Assembly (NCBI GenBank): GCA_905181635.1
Contig: CAJIYM010000003.1
Coordinates: forward strand, 186,001 to 250,000
Direction of reading: 5' to 3'
Length of the DNA stretch: 64,000 nucleotides
Origin: an uncultured Flavobacteriales bacterium
GTDB lineage: Bacteria > Bacteroidota > Bacteroidia > Flavobacteriales > BACL11
Position numbers and translations under genes: made by a program
Notes under the pieces: generated by a model
Seen by the model: the letters and a program-made list of their open reading frames with translations, nothing else
Database searches by the model: none
What the model was told of the DNA's origin: nothing
Part shown: piece by piece, positions 5,370 to 64,000 of the stretch
Layout of the letters: the number at the start of each line of letters is the position of its first letter
Position numbering within the stretch: position 1 is the first letter of the stretch

Positions 5370-6211
5370 AAAAATTAACCCTATTTTTATTTATTAGCAA
5401 TTTCGCTTTCGCACAGACGTCTCTATTAGACACCAACTCTATTCTAATTGGAGAGCAAATAAATTTTACAATTAGCAATACTATTAGTAAAACAGAAGTT
5501 TGGCCTACTTTTGAAGAGTTTTTAGTGAAAGGAGTTGAGATTATTGAGGAGGGGAAACTAGATACAAGCGAAAATTTAATTTCACAAAACTTCATCATCA
5601 CCGCTTGGGATAGCGGAAGTTACTACATCCCTCCTATTTCCTTTTCAGCAAACAGCAAAACTGAAGGATTACTCTTAAATGTGCAAACTGTAATTTTAGA
5701 AGAAGGTGCAGAACTAAAAGACATAAAACAACCGATGCTAGCACCTATTGGTTGGAGCGATATTTGGCCTTGGTTACTAGCTTTTATTGTATTGGCCCTA
5801 GCTATCTTCTTGCTTAAAAAATATGTGTTCAATAAAAAAGAGAAAGAGAGGATTGAAAAGCCAAAAGTGATTACCCCTGCTGACATTACTGCCCTACAAC
5901 AGTTAACAAAATTGGATAAAGCACAGCTTTGGCAAGGGGGAGGTGTAAAAGAATATCATTCTGAACTTTCAGAAATTATTAGGAGATATACTGAAAATAG
6001 ATTCAACTTTATTGCCCTTGAATTAGCTACAGATGAGATAATAAGCGAACTAAAAAGCAAAGTAAACAACGAGCAGTTAGCGAGTATAACCATCCTATTA
6101 CAAAGAGCCGATTTAGCAAAATTTGCCAAAAGCAAACCTAATGAGGATGATAATAAAGAAAGTATGCAATTGGCTAAACATTTTGTTGAACAAACAAAAG
6201 AAAAGAAATAA
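5366..6211 (+). CDS. BatD-like/DUF4381-like membrane protein
   Basis: 281 residues: signal peptide 1-17 (ends FAFAQ), a periplasmic beta-rich region (about 18-125), one transmembrane helix (about 133-151), and a cytoplasmic tail with HSELSEIIRRYTENRF. This layout is that of DUF4381 and of the C-terminal half of BatD, which often sits between the DUF58 and VWA genes in Flavobacteriia. It overlaps both neighbours by a few bases, so translation is coupled. Biochemical role unknown. Confidence 0.75.
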   Translation: MKKLTLFLFISNFAFAQTSLLDTNSILIGEQINFTISNTISKTEVWPTFEEFLVKGVEIIEEGKLDTSENLISQNFIITAWDSGSYYIPPISFSANSKTEGLLLNVQTVILEEGAELKDIKQPMLAPIGWSDIWPWLLAFIVLALAIFLLKKYVFNKKEKERIEKPKVITPADITALQQLTKLDKAQLWQGGGVKEYHSELSEIIRRYTENRFNFIALELATDEIISELKSKVNNEQLASITILLQRADLAKFAKSKPNEDDNKESMQLAKHFVEQTKEKK

Positions 6212-8953: not shown

Positions 8954-10710
8954 TTGAAAAAATTAAGCATTATATTATTCTTTTTTTGCAGTGCTTTATT
9001 ACAAGCACAGCAACTAAAGGTATCAGCTGACAAAAACCCAGCTATAGTCGGAGAGCAAATTGTTATTCAATATAAAATTAACGAAGAAGCGGATAACTTT
9101 ATATCTCCAAATTTTAAAGGATTAAAAGTATTGAGTGGACCTAACCCTTCCACGCAAAGTAGTTATAGTTTTGTTAACGGAAAAAGTCAAAACAGTAGTT
9201 CTACTACTTATTCCTTTTATATAAAAGCAGTAAAAGAAGGCATATACAGTATAAGTCCAGCTAGCATTACCATTAAAGGTAAAAAGATACAAAGTAAGGC
9301 ATACTCACTAAAAGTAGTAAAAGGAAGTGAAAAAAATAAAGCCCAACAAAAAGAGCTAGGAGATAACTTATTTATTAAAGTTGAAGTAAGTAAAAGAAAT
9401 ATTATAGTTGGAGAACAAATTCTTGTCACATACAAATTATTTACTAGAATTGATTTGCAGAATACTGAACTATCTTCATTGCCAGCTTTAAACGGATTTT
9501 GGGCAAAGGATCTGGAGACTTCAAGTCGATTTAAACGAGATGTGATTGATGGTATTGCTTATAATGTAGCAACTATAAAAAAATCAGTACTAACTGCACA
9601 AAAATCAGGTGAACTAGTTATTGATCCTATGGAAATCAAGTGCAGTATACGTATTCAAAAGCAAAGAAATAATCGTGATCCTTTTGCTAACTTTTTTGGA
9701 GGAAGCTACAATGTTCAAGAAGAATTTATCAGTTCCAAACCAATTATTGTTAAAGTAAATGAATTATCCACTCCACCCAATAATTTTAAAGGTGCAGTTG
9801 GCGACATGAAAATCGAATCTTCAGTTGACAAGACAAGCATAAATGCCAATGATGCCATTGTACCTACAAATTAACAATTACAGGTACAGGAAATATAGAA
9901 TTAATAGAACCCTTAAAGATTAAATTTCCTGAAGACTTTGAAGTCTATGACCCAAAAATCATAGACAGAATATTTGAAGGAGGAAGAAAAAGAAGCATCA
10001 AAACCTTTGAGTATCTGTTAATTCCAAGGTATAAAGGGAATTACAGCATTCCTTCTGCAAGACTTATAATTTACAATACAAAAAAGAAACAATACGAAAC
10101 TAAAAAATCGAGTAAGCACGATTTAACAATATTAGCAAGCAAAAACAATGAACAAGAATCAGGAATAGTAAACAAGCAAAACGTTAGAAGGGAGCAGAAA
10201 GACATTCACTATATTTTTACTAAAAGTAACCTAAAAGTAATAAAAGAAAAAATAATACATCCCAAAGTCTTTTACTCTATTTTCTTATTGCCAATACTTT
10301 TACTTATCTTTTTATGGATTTACAATAAAATAGTTGGCAAAACTGACACGTCAGGCATTGAATGGAAAAACAGAAAAGCAAACAAAATAGCATTAAAAAG
10401 ACTAAAAACTGCACAAATATGCATAAATTCTAATGATTTTGATTCATTTTTTGAAGAAATAGAAAAATCACTTTGGGGTTATTTTGCTGATAAATTCAAA
10501 GTTGAAAGTGCTGACTTATCCAAAGAAACAGTAAGTACTTTTTTCAAATCTACTAATATTGATAACAATATTGAAATCAAGTTTATTAATTTGTTAGATG
10601 AATGTGAATTTGCACGTTATGCTCCTGAAAGCAATAAAAATGCACAAATGGATACAGTACTTACAAAAGCAAAAAATATAATTATTGAAGTTGAAACTGC
10701 CTTAAAATGA
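8954..10710 (+). pseudogene. batD: BatD-type protein, apparent frameshift at about 9860
   Basis: BatD is a large periplasmic beta-rich protein with a C-terminal membrane helix. The first frame, from TTG 8954, gives signal peptide MKKLSIILFFFCSALLQAQ and oxygen-tolerance (BatD) domains. It then stops at 9872-9874. Homologous sequence resumes one frame over at 9862 (TYKLTITGTGNIELIEP) and runs to 10710 with a helix at about 10270-10325 and a cytoplasmic tail. One missing base near 9857-9861 (or two extra) explains the break. The TTG start lies one base after the batC stop. The end overlaps batE by ATGA. It is either a sequencing error or a real loss of BatD. Confidence 0.85.
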
Positions 10711-11435
10711 AAAGATTAATTTTTATCCTAAGCTTATTTATTTACTCACAAAATTTTGCTAGTGAGCAGGTGTTTGAGCTAGGAAATAAACAATATGTAA
10801 ATGAAAATTATTCAGCAGCCATTTCACTTTACGACAGCATATTAATATCAGGGATGGAAAGCAGTGAACTATACTACAACTTAGGCAATTGTCATTACAA
10901 AACAAATGATTGGGCTAATGCAATTTGGCATTATGAAAAAAGCTTGCAACTTAACAATAATGAAAAAACAAAACATAACTTGGAGTTAGTAAAGCTTAAG
11001 ATTATTGATCGTATTGAACCTCTACCTCAACTTTTTTACAAAAAATGGTGGATTGATTTAACACAGACTTTAAGCACTCAAGTTTGGCAAATTCTAACAC
11101 TCTTTGGTATAGGGTTGATTTTTATATTGCAATTAATTAGTCAATTCACATCACTAAAAACCAAGCGAATTAAAAAAATATTTTCTGTCATAACATTAAT
11201 TATTTTGTTTGTTACTCAAACTTCTTATTATAATCATTTTACTAAAAAGGAAGCCATTATTTTTTATGAAACAATCACAGTAAATAGTGCTCCAACTAGA
11301 AATAGTACTAATTTATTTACATTACATAAAGGAAGTAAGGTTGAAATTGTAGATACTATTGATAATTGGATTAACATTAAAATTGCTAATGGAAATAGGG
11401 GTTGGATTACACGAAATTCTATCAAGGAATTATAG
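10707..11435 (+). CDS. batE: BatE-type TPR/SH3 membrane protein
   Basis: 242 residues. Signal peptide 1-18; TPR region (about 20-95; SELYYNLGNCHYKTNDWANA); two membrane helices (about 124-146 and 155-173); and a C-terminal SH3-like domain (about 185-242; ending GNRGWITRNSIKEL). This TPR-TM-TM-SH3 order is the normal BatE layout. It is the last gene of the operon; no strong terminator follows in the 153 bases before the next gene. Confidence 0.88.
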   Translation: MKRLIFILSLFIYSQNFASEQVFELGNKQYVNENYSAAISLYDSILISGMESSELYYNLGNCHYKTNDWANAIWHYEKSLQLNNNEKTKHNLELVKLKIIDRIEPLPQLFYKKWWIDLTQTLSTQVWQILTLFGIGLIFILQLISQFTSLKTKRIKKIFSVITLIILFVTQTSYYNHFTKKEAIIFYETITVNSAPTRNSTNLFTLHKGSKVEIVDTIDNWINIKIANGNRGWITRNSIKEL

Positions 11436-11515: not shown

Positions 11516-11588
11516 TTGTCTAAACTATCTGATAGTCATCTATTTAGAATGGTTATAGATAAATTGCTAATCAATTAATAATCAAGGA

Positions 11589-14500
11589 ATGAAAGGGAAA
11601 TCAACAATATTTTTTATACTAATATTTACGTACACATTTTCATTTGCCCAAAGTGACACTTGTGATATAAGTATTCCTGAAATTTGCGCTAGCGCTCCTT
11701 TACAAACTTATGCTGCCAGCACAAGTGGAACAGCATGGGCTCCATTCGGAACCTACTTTACTTGCCCATCTGTAGGACAACTCACTATGAACCCTTCTTT
11801 TTTCTTTTTTGAAATTGGAGCTACTGGTGATTTCTCCATGACTATTGATCCTATTGATCCTTTTACTGGAGCGTTACTGATTGCGCCTAGTGACTTAGAC
11901 TATATCTGCTGGGGACCTTTTAGCTCAGCAAATGCTTGTGCGCAATTACAAGGTCCAAATCAATTTTCTTGTAGTGGTTCAAATGCTGCTTCAGAAACTG
12001 TTACAATTCCAGGAGCAATAGCTGGAGAATTCTATATTTTATTAGTTTCTAATTATGCACAAGTAGGCAATACTCCTCCTGATGCTAATATTCAATTTAC
12101 AGCTAGCACCTCTGTTTCAGGAACAAACCCTCTTGGGGGCGGAGGCTTTGCAGGGGCAGATGCACAAATTACAGCATGTAGCTCTGATTTACCATTTAAT
12201 CTTACTGATCAGTTAAATGGTTTTCCTGATGACTGGGGATATTGGGTTGAATCAATTTCCGGAAATATAGTTGATACCATTTTTGATCCGGCTAATGACA
12301 TAGGAGGAACCTATATGTACATTATTCCTCAAGGAAATTCTTGCGGAGGAGATACCGCTCTACTAGAAGTGAATATTTTTAACGCATCAAGTATTTCAAT
12401 AACATCAACTCCAAATTCATGTTCTAATGACGCAAGTATCAATCTTACAGCTTCTCCACCTGGAGGTATTTTTAGTGGTACTGATGTTTTAGGCAATATT
12501 TTTACTCCATCATCTAGTAATGTTGGTGTAAATATTATTTCGTATGAATATACCGCTGTTGGCTGTACACCAATTATTGTTACTCAAAATTTAACAATAA
12601 ATGAATCACCTTTAGTACTTGCAAACGATATATCCACTACAAATCCATTGTGTTTTGGAGATTGTGATGGAACCTCTACAATTACAGCATCTTCAGGTAT
12701 TGGTCCTTATACTTATAATTGGTTTGGACAAAATCCTACAGCTCTTTGTGCTGGAGTTTTTAATTATACTGTCACTGACGATAATAATTGCACCTATTCA
12801 GATAACATAACTATATTTGACCCTGCAAATGATTTAGGAGTTCTCACTAATTATGATATTAGTTGTTATGGAGAAGATGATGGTGAGATTTCAATAACAA
12901 TGTTCGGAGGAACTACTCCTCCTGGAACAGTATCAGATCCTGATCCTGATGGGGACGGGATTCCATATTGCCTCTCATCAACAGCTGTTGGTATGATTAA
13001 TTCTGGAGGAGGAATTAATCAAGATGCAACCATTGAAGAGGTAATTTTAATTGGAGATGTGGTTACAATTAATAATAATACTGCTGGAGTTATTGATTAT
13101 TATGAAGATTACACAACAACTATGTATGCAGATATCACTGTTGGACAATCTTATACAATTAATCTTATTTTAGGTGACTTTTCATTACCAGCTCAAGACT
13201 ATCCTTCTGGTGCAAAAGTTTTTATTGACTACAATATTGATGGTGACTTTAATGATGCAGGAGAAGAAATTGGTATGCTTAATGCAACTGGTTTTTCACC
13301 TAATGTTGGATCAATTAATTTTACAGTTCCGGCAACTGGAGCTTTTGGAGCAACAAGAATGAGGGTTGTATCTCAGGATGTAATCCTAACCTCAACTAAT
13401 TCAATCGGTCCTTGTGATTATTCCGATCCATCTATTTCAAATGGACAAGATGCCCCTTGGTTTGGAGCAACAGAAGACTATTCAATCGTCCTAAACTCAC
13501 CAGTAGTTAATGCTACTTTTTTATGGAACAATGGACAAACTACTAGCTCTGTAGACAATTTAAGTCCAGGAACATACACCGTAACAATCACTCCTAATAG
13601 TAGTAGTTGTGCTGTACAAGATTCAGCGACTATTTCAGAACCAGATGAAATTACTTTCTCACCAACAATTACTCCAATTAGTTGTAACAGCTTTACAGAT
13701 GGACAAATATCACTAAATCCTTCAGGTGGGAATGGAGGGATATACTCTACTGACTGGGGGATCAATAATCCTTCAGCTCTTGGAGCTGGTAGTTATTTGG
13801 TTACGGTATCAGATCCTTCAACAATTACTACAACAAACCTAATTGCTTGCGAAAGTGACACGTTAATTACATTAATTGAGCCTGAATACTTCAGCGTTGA
13901 CTTTACAATATCGTCTAATGAAATATGCTTAAATGACCCATTAACTTTAGATTTTAACTTTAACCAAGGAGGGGTTTCTAACTTCATGATTAATTACACT
14001 GAAAATTCGATCCCTATGTCGGCAGGACCTTTCACTTCGGGAACACAACAAATAAGTGTTACTCCAAATATAGGAAATAACACATACATAGTTACAAGTA
14101 TATCTGACGCTTCAGGTTGCATAAATCAAAATATAATTAATTCGCAAAGTGTTTATGTTAACCCTCTACCTGATATTAATGTTACTGTTGCTCCTAACCC
14201 AATTTGCGTTGGTGATAATGCAACTTTACAGTTTTCTTCTACAAATGGCACACCACCTTACGTAGTTGATTATTTTAATGGAGGTATAGCTGCATCAGAA
14301 AATGTTCCTGCTGCTGGCTCAAGTGTTTTAGTAAGCCCAACAACAACAACAGTTTATAAATTAAGCCTTGCAACTGACAGCAAAGGATGTAATTCAACCT
14401 TATCAGACAGTACGACTTTAGTAGTCTATGAAATTCCTGAATTAAATACTTCTTATCCAACTGAATTTTGTGAAGGGAAAGCAATAGAAATCGATCTTGA

Positions 14501-15512
14501 TTTTAATGTAGGTTATCCTCCTTTTATCATTGATTATATGTTTAACGGTACACCAACTTCCACAACCGTAAATAATCAGCAAGGCACCCTGTCATTTGTC
14601 TCTACAAATCCAACTAATATAATCATTAATACAATTACATCAAATAATTGCACAAATTTAATCAATGAATCTATTGCAATCACTACCAACCCCTTACCTA
14701 TTGCTGATATTAGTGGGGATTATGAGCTATGTGATAATGGTGAGGAAGCTGATATATTAATAGTTACAACTGAAGGCACTCCTTTTTACAACATAGTTTA
14801 CACTAATGGAATAAACATTGATAGCATTACATATGCTAGTGGTAATCAAACATTCAAAACCAATACATCAGGAGTGTATTCTTTAATTAGCGTGACAGAT
14901 TCTAAAGGATGTGAATCTATAGATATGAATGGATTTGCAACCGTAATTATTAATCCCTTGCCAGATGTATCTATTTCTGTATACCCAACTAATACAGAAA
15001 TTACTGACCCTCTAATTTATTTTGAAGACAGAAGTAGTAATTACACATCAGCAATATGGAATTTTGATGATGGGCAAACACAAGCCTCAAACTTTAATAC
15101 AATTAATCATATTTATAGTGATACAGGAACTTATCAAGTGTCTTTAACAAGCATCTCGATAGATGGCTGTGAAAACACAGCTTATCAAACAATTATTATT
15201 TCACCAACATTAACTATTTATATTCCGAATTCTTTTTCCCCAAACAATGACTTAGATAATGATTATTTCATGCCTATAACAGACGGTGTTCAAGACTTTG
15301 AAATGAGTATCTATGAAAGGTCGGGTCAAAGAATATTTAGAACAACTGAATACTCCAATGAATACTGCACAACAGGCTGTGATGCAGCTTGGGACGGAAC
15401 AGTAAATAATGGTAAATATGGAGCAATGGGCGTTTATATTTATAGTATAATAATTACTGATATTAATGGTAAAATAAGAAATTTTGAAGGTTCAATTACT
15501 TTAATAAATTAA
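11589..15512 (+). CDS. Giant T9SS-secreted multidomain surface protein (CHU_C end)
   Basis: 1307 residues, predicted to be exported by Sec (signal peptide 1-21, ending FAQ) and then by T9SS. In order: a Cys-containing N-terminal beta domain (about 24-170); Ig-like segments; SprB-like repeats (NPLCFGDCDGTSTITASSG and ISCYGEDDGEISITMFGG); a GEVED domain (about 443-636, with FIDYNIDGDFNDAGEEIG) lying inside the second SprB-like repeat; several more Ig-like units; a PKD domain near 1140-1195 (WNFDDGQTQ, YSDTGTYQVSL); and a C-terminal gliding-motility-type sorting domain (IPNSFSPNNDLDNDYF). Probable adhesin or surface-mat protein; ligand unknown. First of three such genes in a row. Confidence 0.85.
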   Translation: MKGKSTIFFILIFTYTFSFAQSDTCDISIPEICASAPLQTYAASTSGTAWAPFGTYFTCPSVGQLTMNPSFFFFEIGATGDFSMTIDPIDPFTGALLIAPSDLDYICWGPFSSANACAQLQGPNQFSCSGSNAASETVTIPGAIAGEFYILLVSNYAQVGNTPPDANIQFTASTSVSGTNPLGGGGFAGADAQITACSSDLPFNLTDQLNGFPDDWGYWVESISGNIVDTIFDPANDIGGTYMYIIPQGNSCGGDTALLEVNIFNASSISITSTPNSCSNDASINLTASPPGGIFSGTDVLGNIFTPSSSNVGVNIISYEYTAVGCTPIIVTQNLTINESPLVLANDISTTNPLCFGDCDGTSTITASSGIGPYTYNWFGQNPTALCAGVFNYTVTDDNNCTYSDNITIFDPANDLGVLTNYDISCYGEDDGEISITMFGGTTPPGTVSDPDPDGDGIPYCLSSTAVGMINSGGGINQDATIEEVILIGDVVTINNNTAGVIDYYEDYTTTMYADITVGQSYTINLILGDFSLPAQDYPSGAKVFIDYNIDGDFNDAGEEIGMLNATGFSPNVGSINFTVPATGAFGATRMRVVSQDVILTSTNSIGPCDYSDPSISNGQDAPWFGATEDYSIVLNSPVVNATFLWNNGQTTSSVDNLSPGTYTVTITPNSSSCAVQDSATISEPDEITFSPTITPISCNSFTDGQISLNPSGGNGGIYSTDWGINNPSALGAGSYLVTVSDPSTITTTNLIACESDTLITLIEPEYFSVDFTISSNEICLNDPLTLDFNFNQGGVSNFMINYTENSIPMSAGPFTSGTQQISVTPNIGNNTYIVTSISDASGCINQNIINSQSVYVNPLPDINVTVAPNPICVGDNATLQFSSTNGTPPYVVDYFNGGIAASENVPAAGSSVLVSPTTTTVYKLSLATDSKGCNSTLSDSTTLVVYEIPELNTSYPTEFCEGKAIEIDLDFNVGYPPFIIDYMFNGTPTSTTVNNQQGTLSFVSTNPTNIIINTITSNNCTNLINESIAITTNPLPIADISGDYELCDNGEEADILIVTTEGTPFYNIVYTNGINIDSITYASGNQTFKTNTSGVYSLISVTDSKGCESIDMNGFATVIINPLPDVSISVYPTNTEITDPLIYFEDRSSNYTSAIWNFDDGQTQASNFNTINHIYSDTGTYQVSLTSISIDGCENTAYQTIIISPTLTIYIPNSFSPNNDLDNDYFMPITDGVQDFEMSIYERSGQRIFRTTEYSNEYCTTGCDAAWDGTVNNGKYGAMGVYIYSIIITDINGKIRNFEGSITLIN

Positions 15513-15531: not shown

Positions 15532-18500
15532 ATGAATAAATTAGTATTTATATTACTTTTTTTTCCATTCGTTGGATTTGGACAAATTCTTGACACTATT
15601 ACCATCTGTAATGGAGATAGTTCTTATATTTTCAATAATTGGGAAGAACAAACAGGAAATTATATTAATGGTGTTGATATTACTACATTAATAGTTAATC
15701 CAACACCTACTATTACAGGTAGTTTCATCCTAAATGGTAACGCCACACAACCAATAACTAACACCTATCAGTTAACTCAAGCTACAGGTAATCAATCTGG
15801 ATCTGCATGGAATTCAGTTACATTAAATCTAACACAACCATTTAGTTTTGATGTTGATGTATTTCTTGGATATAATAATAGTGGCGCAGATGGTATGGCT
15901 TTTTTGTTACAACAAGTAAGCACAATTGTAGGTACATCTGGAGGTGGTCTTGGCTATCAAGGAATTTCTCCATCATTGGCTGTTGAGTTTGATACATGGC
16001 AAAATAGTTCAGATCCATCTTATGATCATTTAGCAGTACAAAAGAATGGTGATTTAAATCACAATGGAGCAAATAATTTAGTTCCATTTATAGGTTTCCC
16101 TCCAGGAAACAGTAATATTGAAGATGGATTATGGCATAATGTTGTTTTCTCATGGAACCCTAACACATATAATTTTAAAGTTGTCTATGATGGCGTTACA
16201 CTTGTTAACTATACTAATAATATTGTGGCTAGTATTTTTAGCAATAATCCTAATGTTTATTGGGGATTTACAGCTGCAACAGGTGGAGCAAATAACATAC
16301 AGAAGTTTAGAGTAAATTCACTTGGAGTACAATTATCCGATGAAACTATCTGTTATTCAGACACTATTCAAATTGACCCTCAAGTTAATACTTCTCTCTA
16401 CTCATACCTTTGGACCCCTAACTACGAGATTAGTAATGACACTATCCCTTCTCCTTTATTTTATCCTGATACTACTACTACATATTATTTAGAGATTACA
16501 AATACGTATGGATGTTCACAAACTGATTCACTGACAATTTATGTAGATAACTCTGCTTCTAATATTACATTTCCATTCCCCTCACAATTCTGCCTTGGAC
16601 TAAGTCCAATAAATTTAAATTCTGCAACACCAATTGGCGGAAATTATTTAGTTAACAATAGCGCATCAACTATTTTTAATCCTAATGCAAACGATATTGG
16701 GGTCAATACAGTAACATATTCTTATACAAATTCAAATGGATGCTCTAATTCTTTTACAAATAATATAAGTGTTTATGATTCTCCAATTGCTTTATGCATA
16801 CCTACAAATGTTTCTTGCAATGGTTTTACTGATGGAAGCGCAACACTTTCAATATCAGGAGGAACACCTAACTACACATCTAATTGGGGAGGAAATGATC
16901 CTACTGCGTTAAGTGCAGGAACTTATGGGTATACTGTAACAGATGTAAACTCATGTATCTTTTCTGATAGTGTAATTATTTATGAACCTGAAATTTTTAC
17001 AGCCTCTATCAATACAACAACCGTAAGTTGTAATGGAGGTAACAATGGAACTGCAAATATCCAATTACAAGGATCTTCCACTCCTCCTGGAACTGTTTCT
17101 AATTTAAACTACTGTATATCTACACCAGGATCAAATATCAATTCTACAATTGATAATATTCAATTAACAGGAGATAATGTAAGTATAAATAATAATACTT
17201 CAGGAATATGTGACCAATATGAAGATTACACTAATTTGTACGCTGATGTTACAGAAGGTCAGTCCTACACTATTGATGTTAACTTAGGAGATTGCTCAAA
17301 TACTAATTCTACTTCTGGCGGAAAAGTATATATTGATTGGAATATAGATGGGGATTTTAATGATCCAGGAGAAGAGGTCGGTGTTATTGCATATGGAATT
17401 GCTAGCTCAACATCTATTCTTATAACAGTTCCTTTCTCTGGTGCTTATGGAGCTACACGAATGAGGGTTGTTTCTCAATATCAAGCATCTAGTAATACAA
17501 ATTCTATTTCTTCATGTGATGCTGGTATATGGGCTCCATCTTACATTGAACCTTGGTTTGGTGCTACAGAAGATTATTCAATTGTAATATCAGCTGCTAA
17601 TATAACAGCAACATATAATTGGTCAAACGGATTAACCTCAGATAGTATTAGTGGACTCTCTGCGGGAAATTACTCAGTAGATATTACTAATGGAAATGGA
17701 TGCACTCTAACGAACTCAATTACTATTAATGAGCCAGCTATCATTTCAGGAACAGACAATGTAGGGTCGTACTGCGACTCATATATCTGGCCGATAAATG
17801 GAATCATTTATAATACTAGTAATAATACTGCAACAACTTCTTTAACTGCTAATAATGGCTGTGATAGTATAGTTACTCTAAACTTAATAATTACTAATAG
17901 TACAACAACAATAGATCCTCAAACAGCATGTAATTCTTACACTTGGATTGATGGGAATACTTATACTGCATCTAATAACTCAGCAACATTTACAAGCACC
18001 AATTCAGCTGGTTGTGATAATGTAGCAACCTTAAATCTTACAATTAATAATACCACTAATTCTATAGACCCTCAAACAGCTTGTGATTCTTATACTTGGA
18101 TTGATGGAAATACATATACGACATCTAATAACTCAGCAATATTTATAAGCACCAATTCAGCTGGTTGTGATAATGTAGCAACCTTAAATCTTACAATTAA
18201 TAATACCACTAATTCTATAGACCCTCAAACAGCTTGTGATTCTTATACTTGGATTGATGGAAATACATATACGTCATCTAATAACTCAGCAATATTTACA
18301 AGCACCAATTCAGCTGGTTGTGATAATGTAGCAACCTTAAATCTTACAATTCTTAACTCAACAGCAAATACAACTAATGATGTTGCTTGTGATTCTTATA
18401 CTTGGTTAGTAGATGGCAATACATATACAACAAGTGGTATTTACACAGATACAAATACTAATTCTGCAGGATGTACGAATATTGAAACCCTTAATTTAGT

Positions 18501-19767
18501 GGTTGGCTATACAGATGAAATTGATGTAATAATAGCTGAAAATAATATTAGTTGTTTTGGTTATAATGATGGATCAATAAATTTAATTCCTAATGGAGGA
18601 ACACCTCCTTTTCAATATTCATGGGATAATGGGTCTGTTAACCAAAATATAAATGCATTATCTCCAGGAAATTATAGCTTTACACTAACTGACTCTAATG
18701 GATGTAAATTAGATAGTATTGTCACTATAAACGAAGCTAATCAAATATTCTTAGATTTTATTGCTACTAGTCCAATTTGTAGATATGATGAATCGACGCT
18801 TTCAATAAATATTTCAAACTCATCATCTAATGTTTATACAATGTTATTGCAAGACTCTATTCTAAAATCATTCGTAATAGATACAAACGGATTGCTAATA
18901 CCAGAAGGAATTCCAATTACACTTAGCCCAAACTTCAGCGAAGAAGTTTATATAGTTTCTCTTACTGATACTGAAGGGTGCACGGGAACCTATAATGATG
19001 ATGTTCATATTGAAGTAAAACAACCGCCTCAACTAGAACTTAATGAAGAAGATATATGCATAGGAAGCCAATCATTTACACTTAATAATGCAACACCAAA
19101 TGGAGGATCTTACTCAATTAATGATGAGCTGACCAACTATTTTGATGTTGAAAATTTAGGTTCCGGAGAATATAATATTGGATATAATTATACAGACCCA
19201 ATATCTTCCTGTTCTAACCAAATAAATGAGATAATTACTATCCTTGAATCCCCTAAAGCAGAAATGCTTTTTAGCCCTCAACCAACAGATATAGACAATC
19301 CTAATATCTACTTCAGAGATAATAGTAATGAAACGGTTCTTTACTCAGAGTGGAATTTAGGCGATGGTACAATTGTAAATGATGAGACAAATTTCTGGCA
19401 TACATATCAAGATACAGGAACTTACACTATTAAATATTATATTACAAATATATATGAATGCACGGATTCCGTTATTAAAGACCTTATTATAAACCCTATT
19501 TATATAACTTTTATCCCAGATGCCTTCACACCAAATGGTGATGGAGATAATGATTATTTCTACCCATCAATTATTGGAGGGAATGAATATAATATGAAGA
19601 TATATAATAGGTGGGGGCAAATTATTTATAATACAGATAATGGAAGATGGGATGGCACTATAGACGACAAAGCAGCACCAGATGGTCTATATTCCTATTC
19701 TATTTTAGTTAATGACTTTAAAGATAAACCCTTCATCTATACAGGAATTGTCACTCTTATAAAATAG
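15532..19767 (+). CDS. Giant T9SS-secreted lectin-domain surface protein (CHU_C end)
   Basis: 1411 residues with signal peptide 1-18 (FVGFGQ). Residues about 60-265 resemble an L-type (legume-like) lectin: VDVFLGYNNSGADGMAFLLQ, AVEFDTWQN, WHNVVFSWNP and a closing YWGFTAATGG. Ig-like and SprB-like units follow. A GEVED domain (about 515-690, YIDWNIDGDFNDPGEEVG) is again nested in a SprB-like repeat. Then come five CDSYTW-type repeats (about 740-985), an SprB-like repeat, a PKD-like unit, and a sorting domain (IPDAFTPNGDGDNDYF). Likely a carbohydrate-binding adhesin. The last 428 codons are shared with the next gene. Confidence 0.86.
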   Translation: MNKLVFILLFFPFVGFGQILDTITICNGDSSYIFNNWEEQTGNYINGVDITTLIVNPTPTITGSFILNGNATQPITNTYQLTQATGNQSGSAWNSVTLNLTQPFSFDVDVFLGYNNSGADGMAFLLQQVSTIVGTSGGGLGYQGISPSLAVEFDTWQNSSDPSYDHLAVQKNGDLNHNGANNLVPFIGFPPGNSNIEDGLWHNVVFSWNPNTYNFKVVYDGVTLVNYTNNIVASIFSNNPNVYWGFTAATGGANNIQKFRVNSLGVQLSDETICYSDTIQIDPQVNTSLYSYLWTPNYEISNDTIPSPLFYPDTTTTYYLEITNTYGCSQTDSLTIYVDNSASNITFPFPSQFCLGLSPINLNSATPIGGNYLVNNSASTIFNPNANDIGVNTVTYSYTNSNGCSNSFTNNISVYDSPIALCIPTNVSCNGFTDGSATLSISGGTPNYTSNWGGNDPTALSAGTYGYTVTDVNSCIFSDSVIIYEPEIFTASINTTTVSCNGGNNGTANIQLQGSSTPPGTVSNLNYCISTPGSNINSTIDNIQLTGDNVSINNNTSGICDQYEDYTNLYADVTEGQSYTIDVNLGDCSNTNSTSGGKVYIDWNIDGDFNDPGEEVGVIAYGIASSTSILITVPFSGAYGATRMRVVSQYQASSNTNSISSCDAGIWAPSYIEPWFGATEDYSIVISAANITATYNWSNGLTSDSISGLSAGNYSVDITNGNGCTLTNSITINEPAIISGTDNVGSYCDSYIWPINGIIYNTSNNTATTSLTANNGCDSIVTLNLIITNSTTTIDPQTACNSYTWIDGNTYTASNNSATFTSTNSAGCDNVATLNLTINNTTNSIDPQTACDSYTWIDGNTYTTSNNSAIFISTNSAGCDNVATLNLTINNTTNSIDPQTACDSYTWIDGNTYTSSNNSAIFTSTNSAGCDNVATLNLTILNSTANTTNDVACDSYTWLVDGNTYTTSGIYTDTNTNSAGCTNIETLNLVVGYTDEIDVIIAENNISCFGYNDGSINLIPNGGTPPFQYSWDNGSVNQNINALSPGNYSFTLTDSNGCKLDSIVTINEANQIFLDFIATSPICRYDESTLSINISNSSSNVYTMLLQDSILKSFVIDTNGLLIPEGIPITLSPNFSEEVYIVSLTDTEGCTGTYNDDVHIEVKQPPQLELNEEDICIGSQSFTLNNATPNGGSYSINDELTNYFDVENLGSGEYNIGYNYTDPISSCSNQINEIITILESPKAEMLFSPQPTDIDNPNIYFRDNSNETVLYSEWNLGDGTIVNDETNFWHTYQDTGTYTIKYYITNIYECTDSVIKDLIINPIYITFIPDAFTPNGDGDNDYFYPSIIGGNEYNMKIYNRWGQIIYNTDNGRWDGTIDDKAAPDGLYSYSILVNDFKDKPFIYTGIVTLIK
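18061..18366 (+). repeat. Two near-identical 153-bp tandem repeats (51 codons each)
   Basis: Units 18061-18213 and 18214-18366 encode successive CDSYTW modules. Over most of their length they differ by very few bases (for example acgaca/acgtca and atttata/atttaca); only the last bases of the second unit diverge. More divergent copies flank them. The near identity implies recent unit duplication. Confidence 0.85.
18484..19767 (+). repeat. Upstream copy of a 1284-bp duplicated 3' gene segment
   Basis: Aligns without gaps to 22501-23784 at a constant offset of 4017 bp. I read the first 521 bases (18484-19004) as identical. Scattered differences follow, then a more divergent block at about 19420-19700, then identity again over the last roughly 58 bases to the stop codon. 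Confidence 0.92.
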
Positions 19768-19770
19768 ATA

Positions 19771-22700
19771 ATGAAATTATTAAAAATATTTTTAATATTA
19801 GCTAATTCAATTTTATTCTCTGTTGAAGCATTTTCTTCTCATGCAGCAGGAATGGATATTACTTATAAGTTTATTGGGGTTCCAGGTGGTATTTCTGGTA
19901 GTCAGATTACAATTAACGTTGGTGGTGGAAATACAAATTGGCATTCTGAAATTTCTTGGGATATTTTAGATCCCTCATCTGGAACAATAATTGCCTCTGG
20001 AGGAGCTCCTTTCTCAGGCACAATATGTATTCCTAATGTTAATTTAGGGGATTTAGAGTTTAGAACCTATGACAGCTGGGGTGACGGATGGAATGGTAGC
20101 ACTTATTCTATTAGTGGGAATAGCACATTAAGTGGCGTAATATCAGGAACATTAAATACAGGCTATGGCCCTGGAATTAATACTTTTAACATCATAGGTG
20201 GTTCTGCTTGCACAACAACTGAAATACTTCAATATGAGATAACTTTAAACTTTTATTACGATTGTGAAAATGCAAATCCTCCCCCTCCAAATGATTTTGA
20301 GCTTAGATGGTATAATTGGTCAACATCCAGCAACTTCTTATACAACACTATAAATCTCAGCCAAATAGGAAATTCTACAAGCGTAACACCTGTTTGTAAT
20401 AGTATAACTGATCCATGTTCTTACGGCTTAGATTATGCTTATGAAAAATATACTTACACAGGTATTATTACATTCCCCAATAGAGGATCATGGAAAATAT
20501 GGAACCAACCTCTAAATGCTAGAAACAATACCACATATGGCCCTACAATTAATAGTGACGCTTTGTGCGTTATAGCAAACATAAATAATACAACATACCT
20601 TAGCAGTTCTCCTGTCTTTTCTTCAGATCCCGTTAGTTTTTTATGCTCTGGAGGGGATTGTTTTTATAATGGTGCAACAGATCCAGATCTTGACGATTTA
20701 AGTTACAGCCTAACTCAGCCAAAAGTTAATCAAGGAGCATCAGATAATATGAATTACCAAAATGGTACTTATTTGCAACCTTTTCCTTCAGGAACATCTA
20801 CTTGCGATCCATTAACAGGAGACTTATGTATCAATACAACTAGCACAGGAACATCTGTAGCTGCCATTAAAGTAAATGAATCCAGAAATGGATTTAATAC
20901 AGGATTTGTAACAAGAGATATACAAGTTTGGGCAAGAAATTGCAATGGTGCAGCTAATTCTATAATTACTACACTTTCTAATGCAGGAACTATTATAGAT
21001 AATACTAACAATAGTTTTTCTTTTTGTGTTGACGGAAGCTCTCAATTAAACTTTTCTTTACAAGCTGCTTCTAGTGTTAATATAGAAATGCTTAGTTCGT
21101 TATTACCCAATGGCGCAACATTTTCTGTTAATCCATCAAATCCTCTAAGTTCAACTAATGTTACAGGAACTTTTAATTGGATACCTACAGCTGCTGATAT
21201 AACAGGATCACCTTATACATTTAATATAAATATAAATGATGATGAATGCCCTATACCTAATTCTCAAAGTGAAACTTATCTAATTTACCTAAACGATTTT
21301 AGCATTAGTGACAACTCAACTCCCTTAACCTCATGTTTGAATCCAGATGGTACTTGCACTATCATTCCAAATACCTCTTCTAACTTAGGCTATACTTACG
21401 AATGGAATACTATACCAATTCAAACTTCGGCAACAGCTATAGGTTTAAATGCAGGTTCATATATCTGTATAGTAACTGATACAGCTACAGGATGTATTAC
21501 GAATAGCTCTCCAATAATTGTTACTTCGTCAATCATTCTTCCTAATGTAACAGCCACGGCAACATCTAATACCATTTGTGAAAATGACCCCACTACTCTA
21601 TCTGGAGGCGGCACAGCTGGAGTAACGTATATTTGGGATAATGGAATCACTAACGGAATTAGTTTTAACCCAAATTTAACTACAACTTATACTGTGACTG
21701 GAATTGACTCTAATGGATGTACTAGTAGTGATCTGACAACCATTACAGTAATTCCTAACACTACATCTAGTGATGTTCTGACAGTTTGTGATTCATACAC
21801 ATGGCTTGATGGAGTAAATTATATGAATTCAAATAATTCAGCAACATGGATTACTACAAATACTGCAACGGGATGTGATAACATAGCAACATTAGATCTT
21901 ACAATAAATAATTCTACATCAAATACAACTAACCAAATAACATGTGACTCATACACCTGGGTAGCTAATAATCAAACTTTCACAGTAAGCGGAACTTATA
22001 TAGATCTAAGCACAAATGCATCAGGCTGCTCTCATACTGAAACACTGAATCTTACAATAAATAACTTCACAACAAATACATCAAATTTAATTGAATGTGA
22101 CACATATACTTGGGCTATAAATGGAATCACTTATACTGCAGATGGCACGTACATAGATGTAAGTGTAGATTCTGTAACTGGATGCCCACATACTGAAACA
22201 CTAAATCTTTCAATAAATAACTCCACATCAAATACAATAACTTTAATTGAATGTGATTCATATACTTGGGCTGTAAATGGAATCACTTATACTGCAAGTG
22301 GCACTTATACCGATGTAAGTTCAAATATATCAGGCTGTCCTCATACTGAAACACTAAATCTTACCATTCTTAACTCAACAGAAAATACAACTAACCAAAC
22401 GTCATGTGACACATACACTTGGGCAGTTAATAATCAAACTTATACCATAACTGGAAGCTATACAGAAATAAGTACTAATACAGTAGGATGTACACATACT
22501 GAAACCCTTAATTTAGTGGTTGGCTATACAGATGAAATTGATGTAATAATAGCTGAAAATAATATTAGTTGTTTTGGTTATAATGATGGATCAATAAATT
22601 TAATTCCTAATGGAGGAACACCTCCTTTTCAATATTCATGGGATAATGGGTCTGTTAACCAAAATATAAATGCATTATCTCCAGGAAATTATAGCTTTAC

Positions 22701-23784
22701 ACTAACTGACTCTAATGGATGTAAATTAGATAGTATTGTCACTATAAACGAAGCTAATCAAATATTCTTAGATTTTATTGCTACTAGTCCAATTTGTAGA
22801 TATGATGAATCGACGCTTTCAATAAATATTTCAAACTCATCATCTAATGTTTATACAATGTTATTGCAAGACTCTATTCTAAAATCATTCGTAATAGATA
22901 CAAACGGATTGCTAATACCAGAAGGAATTCCAATTACACTTAGCCCAAACTTCAGCGAAGAAGTTTATATAGTTTCTCTTACTGATACTGAAGGGTGCAC
23001 GGGAACCTATAATGATGATGTCTATATTGAAGTAAAACAACTACCTCAACTAGAACTTAATGAAGAAGATATATGCATAGGAAACCAATCATTTACACTT
23101 AATAATGCAACACCAAATGGAGGATTTTACTCAATTAATGATGAGCTGACCAACTATTTTGATGTTGAAAATTTAGGTCCCGGAGAATATAATATTGGAT
23201 ATAATTATACAGACCCAATATCTTCCTGTTCTAACCAAATAAATGATGTAATAACTATAAGTGAATTCCCTAAAGCAGGAATGCTTTTCAGCCCTCAACC
23301 AACAGATATAGACAATCCTAATATCTACTTCAGAGATAATAGTAATGAAACGGTTCTTTACTCAGAGTGGAATTTAGGCGATGGTACAATTGTAAATGAT
23401 GAGACAAATTTCTGGCATACATATCAAGATACAGGAACTCATAACATTAAATATCATATCACAAATAATTTTGGATGTACAGATTCTATTACTGGGAAAA
23501 TAATTATAAATCCTATTTATTCAGCATTTATACCGAACTCCTTTACACCAAACAATGATGGAGATAATGATTATTTCTATCCATTAATTATTGGAGGATA
23601 CATTTATACAATGAAAATATATAACAGGTGGGGAGAAATTATTTATAATGAAGATAATGGGCAATGGGATGGTAAAGTCAATAATAATTTAGTGCCAAAT
23701 GAAATATATTCCTATTCTATTTTAATTAATGACTTTAAAGATAAACCCTTCATCTATACAGGAATTGTCACTCTTATAAAATAG
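19771..23784 (+). CDS. Giant T9SS-secreted multidomain surface protein (CHU_C end)
   Basis: 1337 residues with a signal peptide ending near residue 22. The N-terminal family signature SSHAAGMDITY (22-32) and its usual continuation YEITLNFYYDC (155-165) are separated by an extra domain (about 36-152) containing TYDSWGDGWNGSTY. Further on are cadherin/Ig-like units, five CDSYTW repeats (about 670-910), an SprB-like repeat (ISCFGYNDGSINLIPNGG), a PKD-like unit and a sorting domain (IPNSFTPNNDGDNDYF). The C-terminal 428 codons duplicate those of the preceding gene. It begins 3 bases after that gene, so they form one transcript. Confidence 0.85.
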   Translation: MKLLKIFLILANSILFSVEAFSSHAAGMDITYKFIGVPGGISGSQITINVGGGNTNWHSEISWDILDPSSGTIIASGGAPFSGTICIPNVNLGDLEFRTYDSWGDGWNGSTYSISGNSTLSGVISGTLNTGYGPGINTFNIIGGSACTTTEILQYEITLNFYYDCENANPPPPNDFELRWYNWSTSSNFLYNTINLSQIGNSTSVTPVCNSITDPCSYGLDYAYEKYTYTGIITFPNRGSWKIWNQPLNARNNTTYGPTINSDALCVIANINNTTYLSSSPVFSSDPVSFLCSGGDCFYNGATDPDLDDLSYSLTQPKVNQGASDNMNYQNGTYLQPFPSGTSTCDPLTGDLCINTTSTGTSVAAIKVNESRNGFNTGFVTRDIQVWARNCNGAANSIITTLSNAGTIIDNTNNSFSFCVDGSSQLNFSLQAASSVNIEMLSSLLPNGATFSVNPSNPLSSTNVTGTFNWIPTAADITGSPYTFNININDDECPIPNSQSETYLIYLNDFSISDNSTPLTSCLNPDGTCTIIPNTSSNLGYTYEWNTIPIQTSATAIGLNAGSYICIVTDTATGCITNSSPIIVTSSIILPNVTATATSNTICENDPTTLSGGGTAGVTYIWDNGITNGISFNPNLTTTYTVTGIDSNGCTSSDLTTITVIPNTTSSDVLTVCDSYTWLDGVNYMNSNNSATWITTNTATGCDNIATLDLTINNSTSNTTNQITCDSYTWVANNQTFTVSGTYIDLSTNASGCSHTETLNLTINNFTTNTSNLIECDTYTWAINGITYTADGTYIDVSVDSVTGCPHTETLNLSINNSTSNTITLIECDSYTWAVNGITYTASGTYTDVSSNISGCPHTETLNLTILNSTENTTNQTSCDTYTWAVNNQTYTITGSYTEISTNTVGCTHTETLNLVVGYTDEIDVIIAENNISCFGYNDGSINLIPNGGTPPFQYSWDNGSVNQNINALSPGNYSFTLTDSNGCKLDSIVTINEANQIFLDFIATSPICRYDESTLSINISNSSSNVYTMLLQDSILKSFVIDTNGLLIPEGIPITLSPNFSEEVYIVSLTDTEGCTGTYNDDVYIEVKQLPQLELNEEDICIGNQSFTLNNATPNGGFYSINDELTNYFDVENLGPGEYNIGYNYTDPISSCSNQINDVITISEFPKAGMLFSPQPTDIDNPNIYFRDNSNETVLYSEWNLGDGTIVNDETNFWHTYQDTGTHNIKYHITNNFGCTDSITGKIIINPIYSAFIPNSFTPNNDGDNDYFYPLIIGGYIYTMKIYNRWGEIIYNEDNGQWDGKVNNNLVPNEIYSYSILINDFKDKPFIYTGIVTLIK
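22501..23784 (+). repeat. Downstream copy of the 1284-bp duplicated 3' gene segment
   Basis: Gap-free match to 18484-19767. It starts inside the last CDSYTW module (ETLNLVVGYT) and ends exactly at the stop codon, covering one SprB-like repeat, the PKD-like unit and the sorting domain. Outside the segment the two genes share only module families, not close sequence. Confidence 0.92.
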
Positions 23785-24291
23785 ATGAAAAATATAGTTC
23801 TGATTTCTGATACTCACCATACTTTAGATGAGCGTTTTTTTCCGCATTTTAAAAAAGCTGATGAGATATGGCATGCTGGAGATATTGGCTCACTTTCTGT
23901 TACTGACACATTAAAATCCTTTGCTCCAATTCGTGTTGTTTATGGAAATATTGATGATAACAATATACGATCTGAATTCAAGGCAAACCTCTATTTTAAA
24001 TGTGAAAAGGTAAATGTTATGATGACTCATATTGGTGGATATCCAAATAGATATGATAAAAAAATATTACCTATAATTAAACAAGCTAATCCTGATTTAT
24101 TTATTTGTGGACATTCACACATCTTAAAGGTGATGTACGATAAAAAACACCAACTACTACATATGAACCCTGGAGCAATAGGTGATTATGGGATACATAC
24201 TGTTAAAACAATACTTTGCTTTAGTGTTGATGAAAGCGAAATAAAAAATTTAAGAGTAATAGAGTTTCCTAGAAGCAAAATACAACTCTAG
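23785..24291 (+). CDS. YfcE/MJ0936-type metallophosphoesterase
   Basis: 168-residue calcineurin-like phosphodiesterase. Metal and phosphate ligands are D9 and H11 (SDTHH), D33 (GDIG), N55 (GNID), H82 (THIGG), and H110 and H112 (GHSH). Small proteins of this class hydrolyse phosphodiesters in the cytoplasm; the substrate is not predictable from sequence. The start codon directly follows the stop of the preceding adhesin gene with no gap, so it is likely on the same transcript. It converges on the DUF4293 gene with only 3 bases between. Confidence 0.9.
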   Translation: MKNIVLISDTHHTLDERFFPHFKKADEIWHAGDIGSLSVTDTLKSFAPIRVVYGNIDDNNIRSEFKANLYFKCEKVNVMMTHIGGYPNRYDKKILPIIKQANPDLFICGHSHILKVMYDKKHQLLHMNPGAIGDYGIHTVKTILCFSVDESEIKNLRVIEFPRSKIQL

Positions 24292-24849: not shown

Positions 24850-26571
24850 ATGTACAAATTAGAAGAATTAAATGCAAAAAAAGTTGCTGATTTAAAAGTA
24901 ATTGCAACAGAATTAGACCTCAAAAAATTTGAGAAATTAAAGAAAGAAGATTTGGCTTATGCCATTTTAGATCATCAGGCAGAAAATAAACAACCTCAAT
25001 CTATACCAGTAATTAAGAAAAACCAAAGAACAAGAACAAATAGTGCAGAAAAAAAAGAACCAAAAAAGCCTGTACATACTGAACTAAAAACTAAAGTTCC
25101 ACAGCCAAATCAAAAGCAAAATATTAAAACAGAAAAATCCCAACCTATTCCAAATGGAAATGACCAAAAAATTGCGCCTAAAAAGCCAGTTCATATCCAT
25201 CAGAAAAATAATGAGGAACGAAATGCACTAAATAAACCTGTGCATAATCATCCAAAAAATAATGATCAAAAAGCACCTAAAAAGCCGATTCATAACCATC
25301 AAAAAAATAATGAGGAACGAAATGTACCAAAGAAGCCTGTGCATAATCATCCAAAAAAAGAAAATGAGCAAGGCAATTCTCATCCAAAACATAACAACAA
25401 TAAAAACCAAGCAAACAGCAGCAACACCCCCCCATCTAAATATGACTATAACTTTGATGGCATAATTAATACAGAAGGAGTAATTGAAATTATGCCTGAT
25501 GGATATGGTTTTATGCGTTCAAGTGATTACCACTATTTATCATCTCCAGACGATGTTTATGTTTCACATTCACAAATTAAGTTATTTGGTTTAAAAACAG
25601 GTGACACTATCAAAGGAACAGTTCGTCCACCAAAAACGGGTGAAAAATACTTTCCTTTAATACAAGTTGAAAGCATCAATGGTCGTGACCCAGGAATTGT
25701 TAGAGATAGAATTCCTTTCCATCATTTAACTCCACTCTTCCCTTATGAAAAGTTTAATCTTTTAGGAAAAGGACATAACAATGTGTCTATTAGAATGTTA
25801 GACATCTTCACTCCAATAGGAAAAGGACAAAGAGGTTTAATTGTAGCACAACCCAAAACAGGTAAAACAGTATTATTAAAAGATATTGCTAATGCAATTG
25901 CTGATAATCATCCTGAGGTTTATATGATTATATTACTGATTGATGAGCGCCCTGAAGAAGTTACAGATATGGAAAGAAGTGTAAATGCTGAAGTAATTGC
26001 TTCTACATTTGATGAACCAGCAAGTAGACATGTCAAAGTAGCTGATATTGTACTAGAGAAAGCCAAAAGGATGGTAGAGTGTGGACATGATGTAGTTATT
26101 CTGTTAGATTCAATTACTCGACTGGCAAGAGCATACAATACAGTACAACCTGCTTCAGGTAAGATATTAAGTGGAGGAGTTGACGCAAATGCACTTCACA
26201 AACCAAAGCGTTTCTTTGGTGCAGCTCGTAAGATTGAAAAAGGTGGATCGTTAACTATTTTAGCAACTGCTCTTACGGAAACTGGAAGCAAAATGGATGA
26301 AGTGATCTTTGAAGAATTTAAAGGAACTGGTAACATGGAATTGCAATTAGATAGAAAAATTGCTAATAGAAGAATTTATCCTGCAGTTGATTTAGTATCT
26401 TCTTCTACTAGGCGCGAGGATTTACTGCTAGACAAAGAGCATATACAAAGAATTTGGGTACTCAGAAATTACTTAGCTGATATGAATCCTATTGAAGCAA
26501 TTGAATTTATGAAAGATAGATTACAAAAAACAAAAGACAATACAGAGTTCTTGGTAACAATGAATGGGTAA
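24850..26571 (+). CDS. rho: Transcription termination factor Rho with long disordered insertion
   Basis: 573-residue Rho, an RNA-dependent hexameric helicase that ends transcription. Residues 1-43 are the Rho-N (SAP-like) helical domain. Residues 44-200 are a low-complexity insertion rich in Lys, Asn, Pro and His with KKPVHNHPK units. Residues about 201-280 are the RNA-binding cold-shock-like domain ([11 protein letters not shown]). The ATPase has Walker A AQPKTGKT (333-340) and [15 protein letters not shown]. coli Rho has 419 residues, so the insertion accounts for the extra length. A strong hairpin terminator follows the gene. Confidence 0.96.
25181..25378 (+). repeat. Two 99-bp tandem repeats in the rho insertion
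   Basis: Units starting at 25181 and 25280 each encode 33 codons of the form KKP(V/I)H[10 protein letters not shown] followed by KPVHNHPK. They are clearly similar but diverged at several positions. Confidence 0.75.
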
Positions 26572-63597: not shown

Positions 63598-64000
63598 TTA
63601 TTTTATAATCAATTTAAAGATTACTTTTTCTTTCTGTTCCACTTCAATTTCTATAAAGTAAATACCACTTGCTTTATTTTCTCTTTTTAGGATATGTTTA
63701 TCTGTATCTATAACATTATACTCCTCTATTAATTTACCAAACACATCTACTAACTTAATACTTGCCTGTTTTACCTGTTTCCCAAAATCAACTGTCGTCT
63801 CTTCTCTAAATGGATTAGGATAAATACTTAAAGCTATCCCAGAAGATAATTGACCAGCACCTGTTGATATATTATCAAAAATGTTTGACTCTACAGTACA
63901 TCCGTTCCCATCAGTTACAACAACATAATAAACACCATAATTAGCAACAATATATGTTACACTAGTACCTATTGAAACAAATGGATTAGACTGTTCTCTC
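63598..64000 (-). CDS. T9SS type A cargo protein, C-terminal fragment
   Basis: 134 codons that run off the right edge and end at a stop at 63598-63600. It shows a beta-rich module end (YYVVVTDGNGCTVES) and then the type A sorting domain: LSIYPNPFREETTVDFG, VKLVDVFGK-type core (here IKLVDVFGKL) and a closing GIYFIEIEVE with KVIFKLIIK. The N-terminal function cannot be seen. Confidence 0.85.
   Translation of the reverse strand, partial: REQSNPFVSIGTSVTYIVANYGVYYVVVTDGNGCTVESNIFDNISTGAGQLSSGIALSIYPNPFREETTVDFGKQVKQASIKLVDVFGKLIEEYNVIDTDKHILKRENKASGIYFIEIEVEQKEKVIFKLIIK

Follow-up and report, generated by a model that had tools for sequence, protein, structure and literature searches.

Concerted evolution by gene conversion of the stalk-coding 3′ parts of type IX cargo genes in marine Flavobacteriales

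Surface proteins of the type IX secretion system (T9SS) that join different N-terminal parts to a common C-terminal repeat sequence are known from Porphyromonas gingivalis, where hagA, rgpA and kgp carry identical C-terminal adhesin repeats that automated assembly cannot resolve and for which recombination has been invoked (PMC5266723). The secreted KLIKK proteases of Tannerella forsythia similarly combine different catalytic heads with nearly identical C-terminal domains, and their authors suggest a recent common acquisition (PMC4404884), whilst the babA, babB and babC genes of Helicobacter pylori encode paralogous adhesins with near-identical ends and a divergent binding part, subject to intragenomic conversion between loci (PMC4552749). 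The locus analyzed here resembles these systems. It lies in a stretch of 64,000 nucleotides, hereafter the window, which covers positions 186001-250000 of contig 3 (CAJIYM010000003.1) in the 1.09 Mb assembly GCA_905181635.1 of an uncultured Flavobacteriales bacterium (8 contigs, 70% complete), and consists of two adjacent genes, P2 and P3. With a probability of about 0.9, P2 and P3 descend from an old duplication, carry unrelated heads and are exported by the T9SS, and their stalk-coding 3′ parts have repeatedly been overwritten mutually by gene conversion.

15532..19767, + strand: P2, 1411 aa, with an L-type lectin head, GEVED, SprB repeats, DSYTW-type repeats, PKD and a type B T9SS sorting domain
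19771..23784, + strand: P3, 1337 aa, with a different head, DSYTW-type repeats, PKD and a type B T9SS sorting domain

The 3′ parts of both genes, 18484-19767 and 22501-23784, end at in-frame gene ends and align without gaps at an offset of 4017 bp. A preliminary description of this DNA had reported this offset, which is exact to the base, together with an identical start of 521 bases, a strongly diverged block around 19420-19700, roughly 58 identical bases at the end and nothing but module types in common upstream. All of these elements are recovered in the comparison, with the diverged block now placed at 19423-19708 and the terminal run counted as 59 bases, so that the shared segment is divided as follows.

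18484..19004, + strand: fully identical tract, P2 copy, 521 bases with zero mismatches (identity 1.000)
22501..23021, + strand: fully identical tract, P3 copy, partner of the preceding
19005..19272 (P3 copy 23022-23289), + strand: mosaic stretch, 16 mismatches in 268 bases (identity 0.940)
19273..19422 (P3 copy 23290-23439), + strand: second identical tract, 150 bases (identity 1.000)
19423..19708 (P3 copy 23440-23725), + strand: island escaping conversion, 286 bases (identity 0.741), covering the last part of PKD and the greater part of the sorting domain
19709..19767 (P3 copy 23726-23784), + strand: identical 3′ end, 59 bases including the stop codon (identity 1.000)

Immediately 5′ of the first tract, at 18298-18483, identity is 68% (0.683) across the last DSYTW-type repeat, and it falls to the background level farther upstream. 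The longest run of agreement between P2 and P3 at variable sites reaches 58, and none of 20,000 permutations exceeded 27 (p <= 5e-5). Within the source genome, where the repeat comparison covered the stretches around type IX cargo genes, the only copies of the segment are those of P2 and P3. The homogenised part is the stalk plus the last 20 codons, and conversion spared the sorting domain: the CHU_C domain at 19513-19761 falls mostly inside the diverged block. The common sorting end proposed in the preliminary description is therefore not what the two genes share, and sorting-domain matching is not what conversion kept there.

The timing and direction of these events can be read against related genomes, of which one per species was used; the source genome is referred to as G000, its relatives by other G numbers, and its nearest relative, a sister species, is G003. 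The corresponding locus of G003 holds a TPR/SH3 gene, the P1 gene, one lectin-headed gene, a metallophosphatase and Rho, with no P3, and its lectin-headed gene was taken as the ortholog of P2. In the identical tract, synonymous divergence (dS) is 0 between P2 and P3 versus 0.35 to G003. In the diverged block it amounts to 0.94 between P2 and P3, 0.63 between P2 and G003, and 1.37 between P3 and G003. Since the block separates P2 from P3 more than P2 from G003, and dS in the tract is 0, the duplication predates the divergence of G003 from the source species, and the identical tracts are younger, having been homogenised later. As regards direction, P2 keeps an identity of 0.83-0.90 to G003 in every region, whereas P3 shows only 0.69 and 0.72 in its unconverted parts and 0.889 in the main tract, the same value as P2. 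The P3 tract thus carries P2-type sequence, and the transfer went from P2 to P3. In the mosaic stretch at 19005..19272, P2 agrees with G003 at 12 sites and P3 at 4. The single gene of G003 likely reflects loss of the P3 head through a crossover between the two stalks, which fits the position of its stop codon, abutting the metallophosphatase start just as the end of P3 does in the window.

An identical 3′ end beneath unrelated 5′ parts is also what a single recent duplication would yield if one of the heads had then been replaced, with no recurrent conversion at all. This is extremely improbable, given that the island at 19423-19708 predates the split from G003 and that the P3 head type occurs in same-locus genes of other genera. 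The P3 head is 35-42% identical to the heads of same-locus genes in four related genomes and has no Pfam match; a structure model of it was too poor to be used (mean predicted local distance difference test score, pLDDT, 42).

When the stretches around the type IX cargo genes of the source genome were compared, two further sets of genes with shared ends emerged, and conversion acts in at least one of these families. Set A of the source genome (family A, in parallel to family C for P2/P3-type genes) comprises three genes of contig 3, A1, A2 and A3, at 179.6, 249.6 and 258.0 kb (L185:13605-18233, L186:3598-8007 and L186:11960-16864), encoding proteins of 1469-1634 aa with differing heads, a SprB-repeat stalk and a type A (Por_Secre_tail) sorting end; one of them reaches into the window.

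63598..64000, - strand: 3′ end of A2, a set A member that runs past the window (contig positions 249598-254007)

The three copies share about 2.97 kb at 99-100% identity, except where A1 has a block of 34 bp of its own and A3 differs in its last ~12 codons. Many relatives have orthologs whose lengths and heads are preserved, and the three heads recur as orthologous genes across genera. The stalks, in turn, are 97.8-99.97% identical over 2.5-3.2 kb within each of ten genomes, and in eight genomes their dS is 0-0.014 within the genome as compared to 0.35-0.94 between genomes. In the tree of set A stalks, the grouping is almost wholly by genome, the one mixed group being the very close pair G021/G032, and a single clade of A2 stalks is rejected (p 2e-41). 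For set A a single duplication is refuted, with heads orthologous across many genera above stalks that are near-identical genome by genome. The 34-bp island confined to A1 is present in G000 and G003. The C-terminal end of ~12 codons confined to A3 is present in G000, G003 and G013, and both adjoin sequence that is alike among the paralogs of each genome. Such old paralog differences beside young identity are a signature of conversion and are not expected of a recent duplication. Moreover, the members of set A are separated by distances of 70 kb and 8 kb that include other genes, and this spacing is nearly kept in G003, which argues for conversion over unequal crossing-over there.

Strong purifying selection acting on the stalk alone, without recombination, could be considered as well, and the stalk is indeed constrained, with a dN/dS (ratio of nonsynonymous to synonymous divergence) of ~0.25 between G000 and G003. 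The chance that this accounts for the pattern is practically nil and the idea is refuted, as synonymous sites too are near-identical within genomes and diverged between them. Between G000 and G003, amino-acid change is quicker in the stalk (dN 0.09) than in the heads (dN 0.02-0.06), yet the stalk copies change in step.

In a further set of the source genome, set B, the CotH-headed gene on contig 5 is intact and its two copies on contig 3 are frameshifted; identity amounts to 96-97% over 1.1-2.5 kb. This set is located at L185:3240-8740 (contig 3, 169.2-174.7 kb) and L187:3161-6748. Its frameshifted genes are adjacent, their last 1.1 kb are 96-97% identical to the intact CotH-headed gene, and their indels fall mostly outside homopolymers. 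These genes are possibly decaying copies or silent donors. A dispersed repeat of ~150-180 bp, 82-94% alike, is also present near cargo genes of contigs 1 and 3 (L196:2-182 and 5750-5927; L197:9697-9885, 11523-11709 and 16217-16411).

Concerning family C in other genomes, a single-sequence search with P3 across the genome contigs gave no match, and an alignment-based search led to matches in marine Flavobacteriales metagenome-assembled genomes and others, the marine habitat of these relatives being judged from isolate names. The tandem pair of G005 shares an end of 4029 bp at 100% identity, that of G024 is identical over its last 2.4 kb, and the pair of G008, located on two contigs (C1 and C2), shares 3290 bp with one mismatch (99.97%); in G014, an identical run of 510 bp reaches a contig end. 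Between G005 and G024 the lectin heads are 86% and the second heads 66% identical, and the stalks of these genomes lie far apart in the family C stalk tree, where the copies of G005, of G008 and of G024 pair by genome. A single clade of lectin-head stalks is rejected (p 1.6e-5), and so is one of second-head stalks (p 5e-4).

Taken together, these data show that no fewer than two families of type IX cargo in these marine Flavobacteriales evolve in concert by conversion, with homogenisation acting on tandem neighbours as well as on genes tens of kb apart or on separate contigs. Genes with different heads were already distinct before species and genera diverged, and the stalks are near-identical within a genome. 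Paralogs within a genome are closer at synonymous sites than orthologs between genomes, and the duplication predates the species split, as heads orthologous across genera and the islands indicate. The preliminary description had favoured conversion over one simple duplication, a view now strongly supported by synonymous sites, trees and islands, and it had proposed to examine whether copies are closer within than between genomes, which was done and holds in many genomes.

Repeats of this kind trouble assemblers, and many contigs of the related genomes break within these stalks, so that one stalk might conceivably have been copied in silico onto two genes. Such an artefact is highly improbable: the two copies of the window show a patterned mosaic of 90 differing sites, paralog-specific islands are common to independent assemblies of two species, and the phenomenon recurs in many independent assemblies, including the two-contig 1.9 Mb assembly of G013. 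As separate observations, contigs start or stop within or directly at the stalks in L068, L069, L077, L084, L093, L094, L211, L212, L217 and L219, as multi-copy repeats would lead one to expect, and on contig 4 of G014 (L213, L083) the main-locus family C genes are broken into several frames, with intact relatives on a second contig (L084).

Several points weigh against recurrent conversion of P2 and P3 as part of a wider process in T9SS cargo. The evidence base is made of assembled genomes, in which exact repeats of 3-4 kb are error-prone. The two family C copies of G026 and the two of G063 are diverged and not homogenised, and the set A stalks of G061 are an exception, with 74.5% identity. 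As for secretion, the PorP/SprF shuttle has seven matches in the source genome, none of them near C3:200-210 kb and thus none adjoining P2/P3.

The assignment of both proteins to the T9SS, which the preliminary description had called giant T9SS proteins, stands on the TIGR04131 and CHU_C domains found in each of them and on the SprA translocon encoded in the source genome (2669 bits). TIGR04131 scores are 41.5 bits for P2 and 43.3 bits for P3, above the cut-off of 35, and CHU_C scores are 54.7 and 43.7 bits, respectively, versus a cut-off of 27. The lectin head of P2 also matches a solved legume-type lectin (7elv_E, 3e-30). The corresponding features, together with the tandem repeats and the genes that flank the locus, are the following.

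15712..16320, + strand: P2 L-type lectin domain, residues 61-263 (PF18483, 4.7e-48)
17911..18351, + strand: P2 153-bp tandem repeats, 2.9 copies, 95%, encoding DSYTW modules, just 5′ of the identical tract
19513..19761, + strand: P2 type B sorting domain (CHU_C/TIGR04131), residues 1328-1410
21888..22512, + strand: P3 repeats of the 153-bp type, 73-78% alike
23530..23778, + strand: P3 type B sorting domain (CHU_C/TIGR04131), residues 1254-1336
10707..11435, + strand: TPR/SH3 protein, conserved upstream flank
11589..15512, + strand: P1, adjacent GEVED/SprB/CHU_C protein and syntenic neighbour
23785..24291, + strand: metallophosphatase, conserved downstream flank
24850..26571, + strand: Rho, conserved downstream flank

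The sorting end of P1, when compared with those of P2 and P3, is its own and is not homogenised.

The probable route for the conversion of these stalks would be ordinary non-reciprocal recombination of the RecA type between long near-identical stalks, with the ends of the tracts set where homology stops, that is, at the head/stalk junction and at the gene end. The products would be surface fibres that carry specialised heads on a common stalk. The driving force could be either recombination drive alone or selection for a stalk that fits one common shuttle or partner. In the case of the type B ends, this partner could be a single orphan PorP/SprF shuttle, as no shuttle adjoins P2/P3 and as three of 12 cargo proteins of Flavobacterium johnsoniae, which have no adjacent shuttle (orphans), share one distant PorP/SprF (PMC12618676); a neighbouring cognate shuttle gene is common for such cargo without being required.

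A different question is whether stalk identity exists so that loci can exchange heads, in the manner of head switching or antigenic variation. The lectin head is found at the metallophosphatase/Rho locus in several genomes and beside an edd-like phosphogluconate dehydratase gene in G008, G015 and G063, so lectin heads have moved between loci to some degree over evolution; the head content of the main locus varies, and the single gene of G003 fits a stalk crossover. Against this, the three family A heads and the lectin head are orthologous across genera, the set A heads being stable there, and silent head cassettes, invertible sites or phase-variable tracts did not come to light, although no systematic search for them was made. 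Head switching as the reason for stalk identity is hence unlikely, and the idea of the preliminary description that heads are swapped onto a common end is unsupported. The lectin-headed family members adjoining the edd-like gene are located at L074:6211-8013, L070:331-2139 and L220:1235-3037, and the edd-like gene itself was not found in G000 or in six other genomes searched.

With recurrent conversion as the preferred reading, a more speculative proposal, which we regard as possible but doubtful, may be put as many heads, one stalk. Conversion would hold the stalks of scattered loci to one evolving sequence over the time span of genera, so that a change in the stalk (for example, for phage evasion or a new shuttle) would reach all fibres at once, and occasional crossovers between stalks would move heads between loci. 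In any case, concerted evolution of coding DNA at the kilobase scale, in several sets of one small genome and in many relatives, is an unusually clear case outside ribosomal RNA genes, and it lets the length of conversion tracts and the resistance of islands be deduced from genome sequences in a natural setting. For type IX surface proteins it implies that the stalk is the common part and that the heads specialise. At a practical level, wrong joins and truncations of such genes are to be expected in short-read assemblies, and stalk sequence is unfit for inferring orthology.

A last comparison concerns the described systems. The translated segment 18484-19764 is related to the Aureispira grappling hook protein A, GhpA (PDB 9flp and others), through its type B end and the neighbouring domain (profile E 5.7e-42), and it resembles GhpA in its Ig-chain fold, with TM-scores of ~0.2 on a model of only moderate confidence (pLDDT 67). 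This relation may serve as a lead on the fibre nature of P2 and P3 only: GhpA has 5898 aa as compared to the 1337-1411 aa of P2 and P3, and the relatedness is confined to the C-terminal part, without extending to a full-length fibre architecture.

Among the closer systems, the H. pylori bab proteins are outer membrane proteins and not type IX cargo. Both ends of the bab genes are shared and the middle varies, and conversion yields chimeras and phase-variable genes (PMC4552749). The piece shared by the KLIKK proteases is an 86-residue sorting domain with a 30-residue motif (PMC4404884), whereas it is in the sorting domain that the ends of P2 and P3 have diverged. In P. gingivalis, the shared parts are cleaved adhesin domains that follow proteases, studied in strains of one species and in P. 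gulae (PMC5266723). Here, on the other hand, the common part is a stalk that bears lectin or other heads and occurs with sorting ends of type A as well as of type B, and homogenisation was tested across genera by synonymous sites, trees and conversion-resistant islands. Searches of an open-access library on conversion or concerted evolution in type IX cargo turned up the P. gingivalis work as the one close precedent. The kind of phenomenon is already known from hagA/rgpA/kgp, from KLIKK and from the bab genes; what appears to be new is its extent, with several sets in a single genome, tracts of 3-4 kb and many genera involved, together with the stable orthologous heads and the islands.

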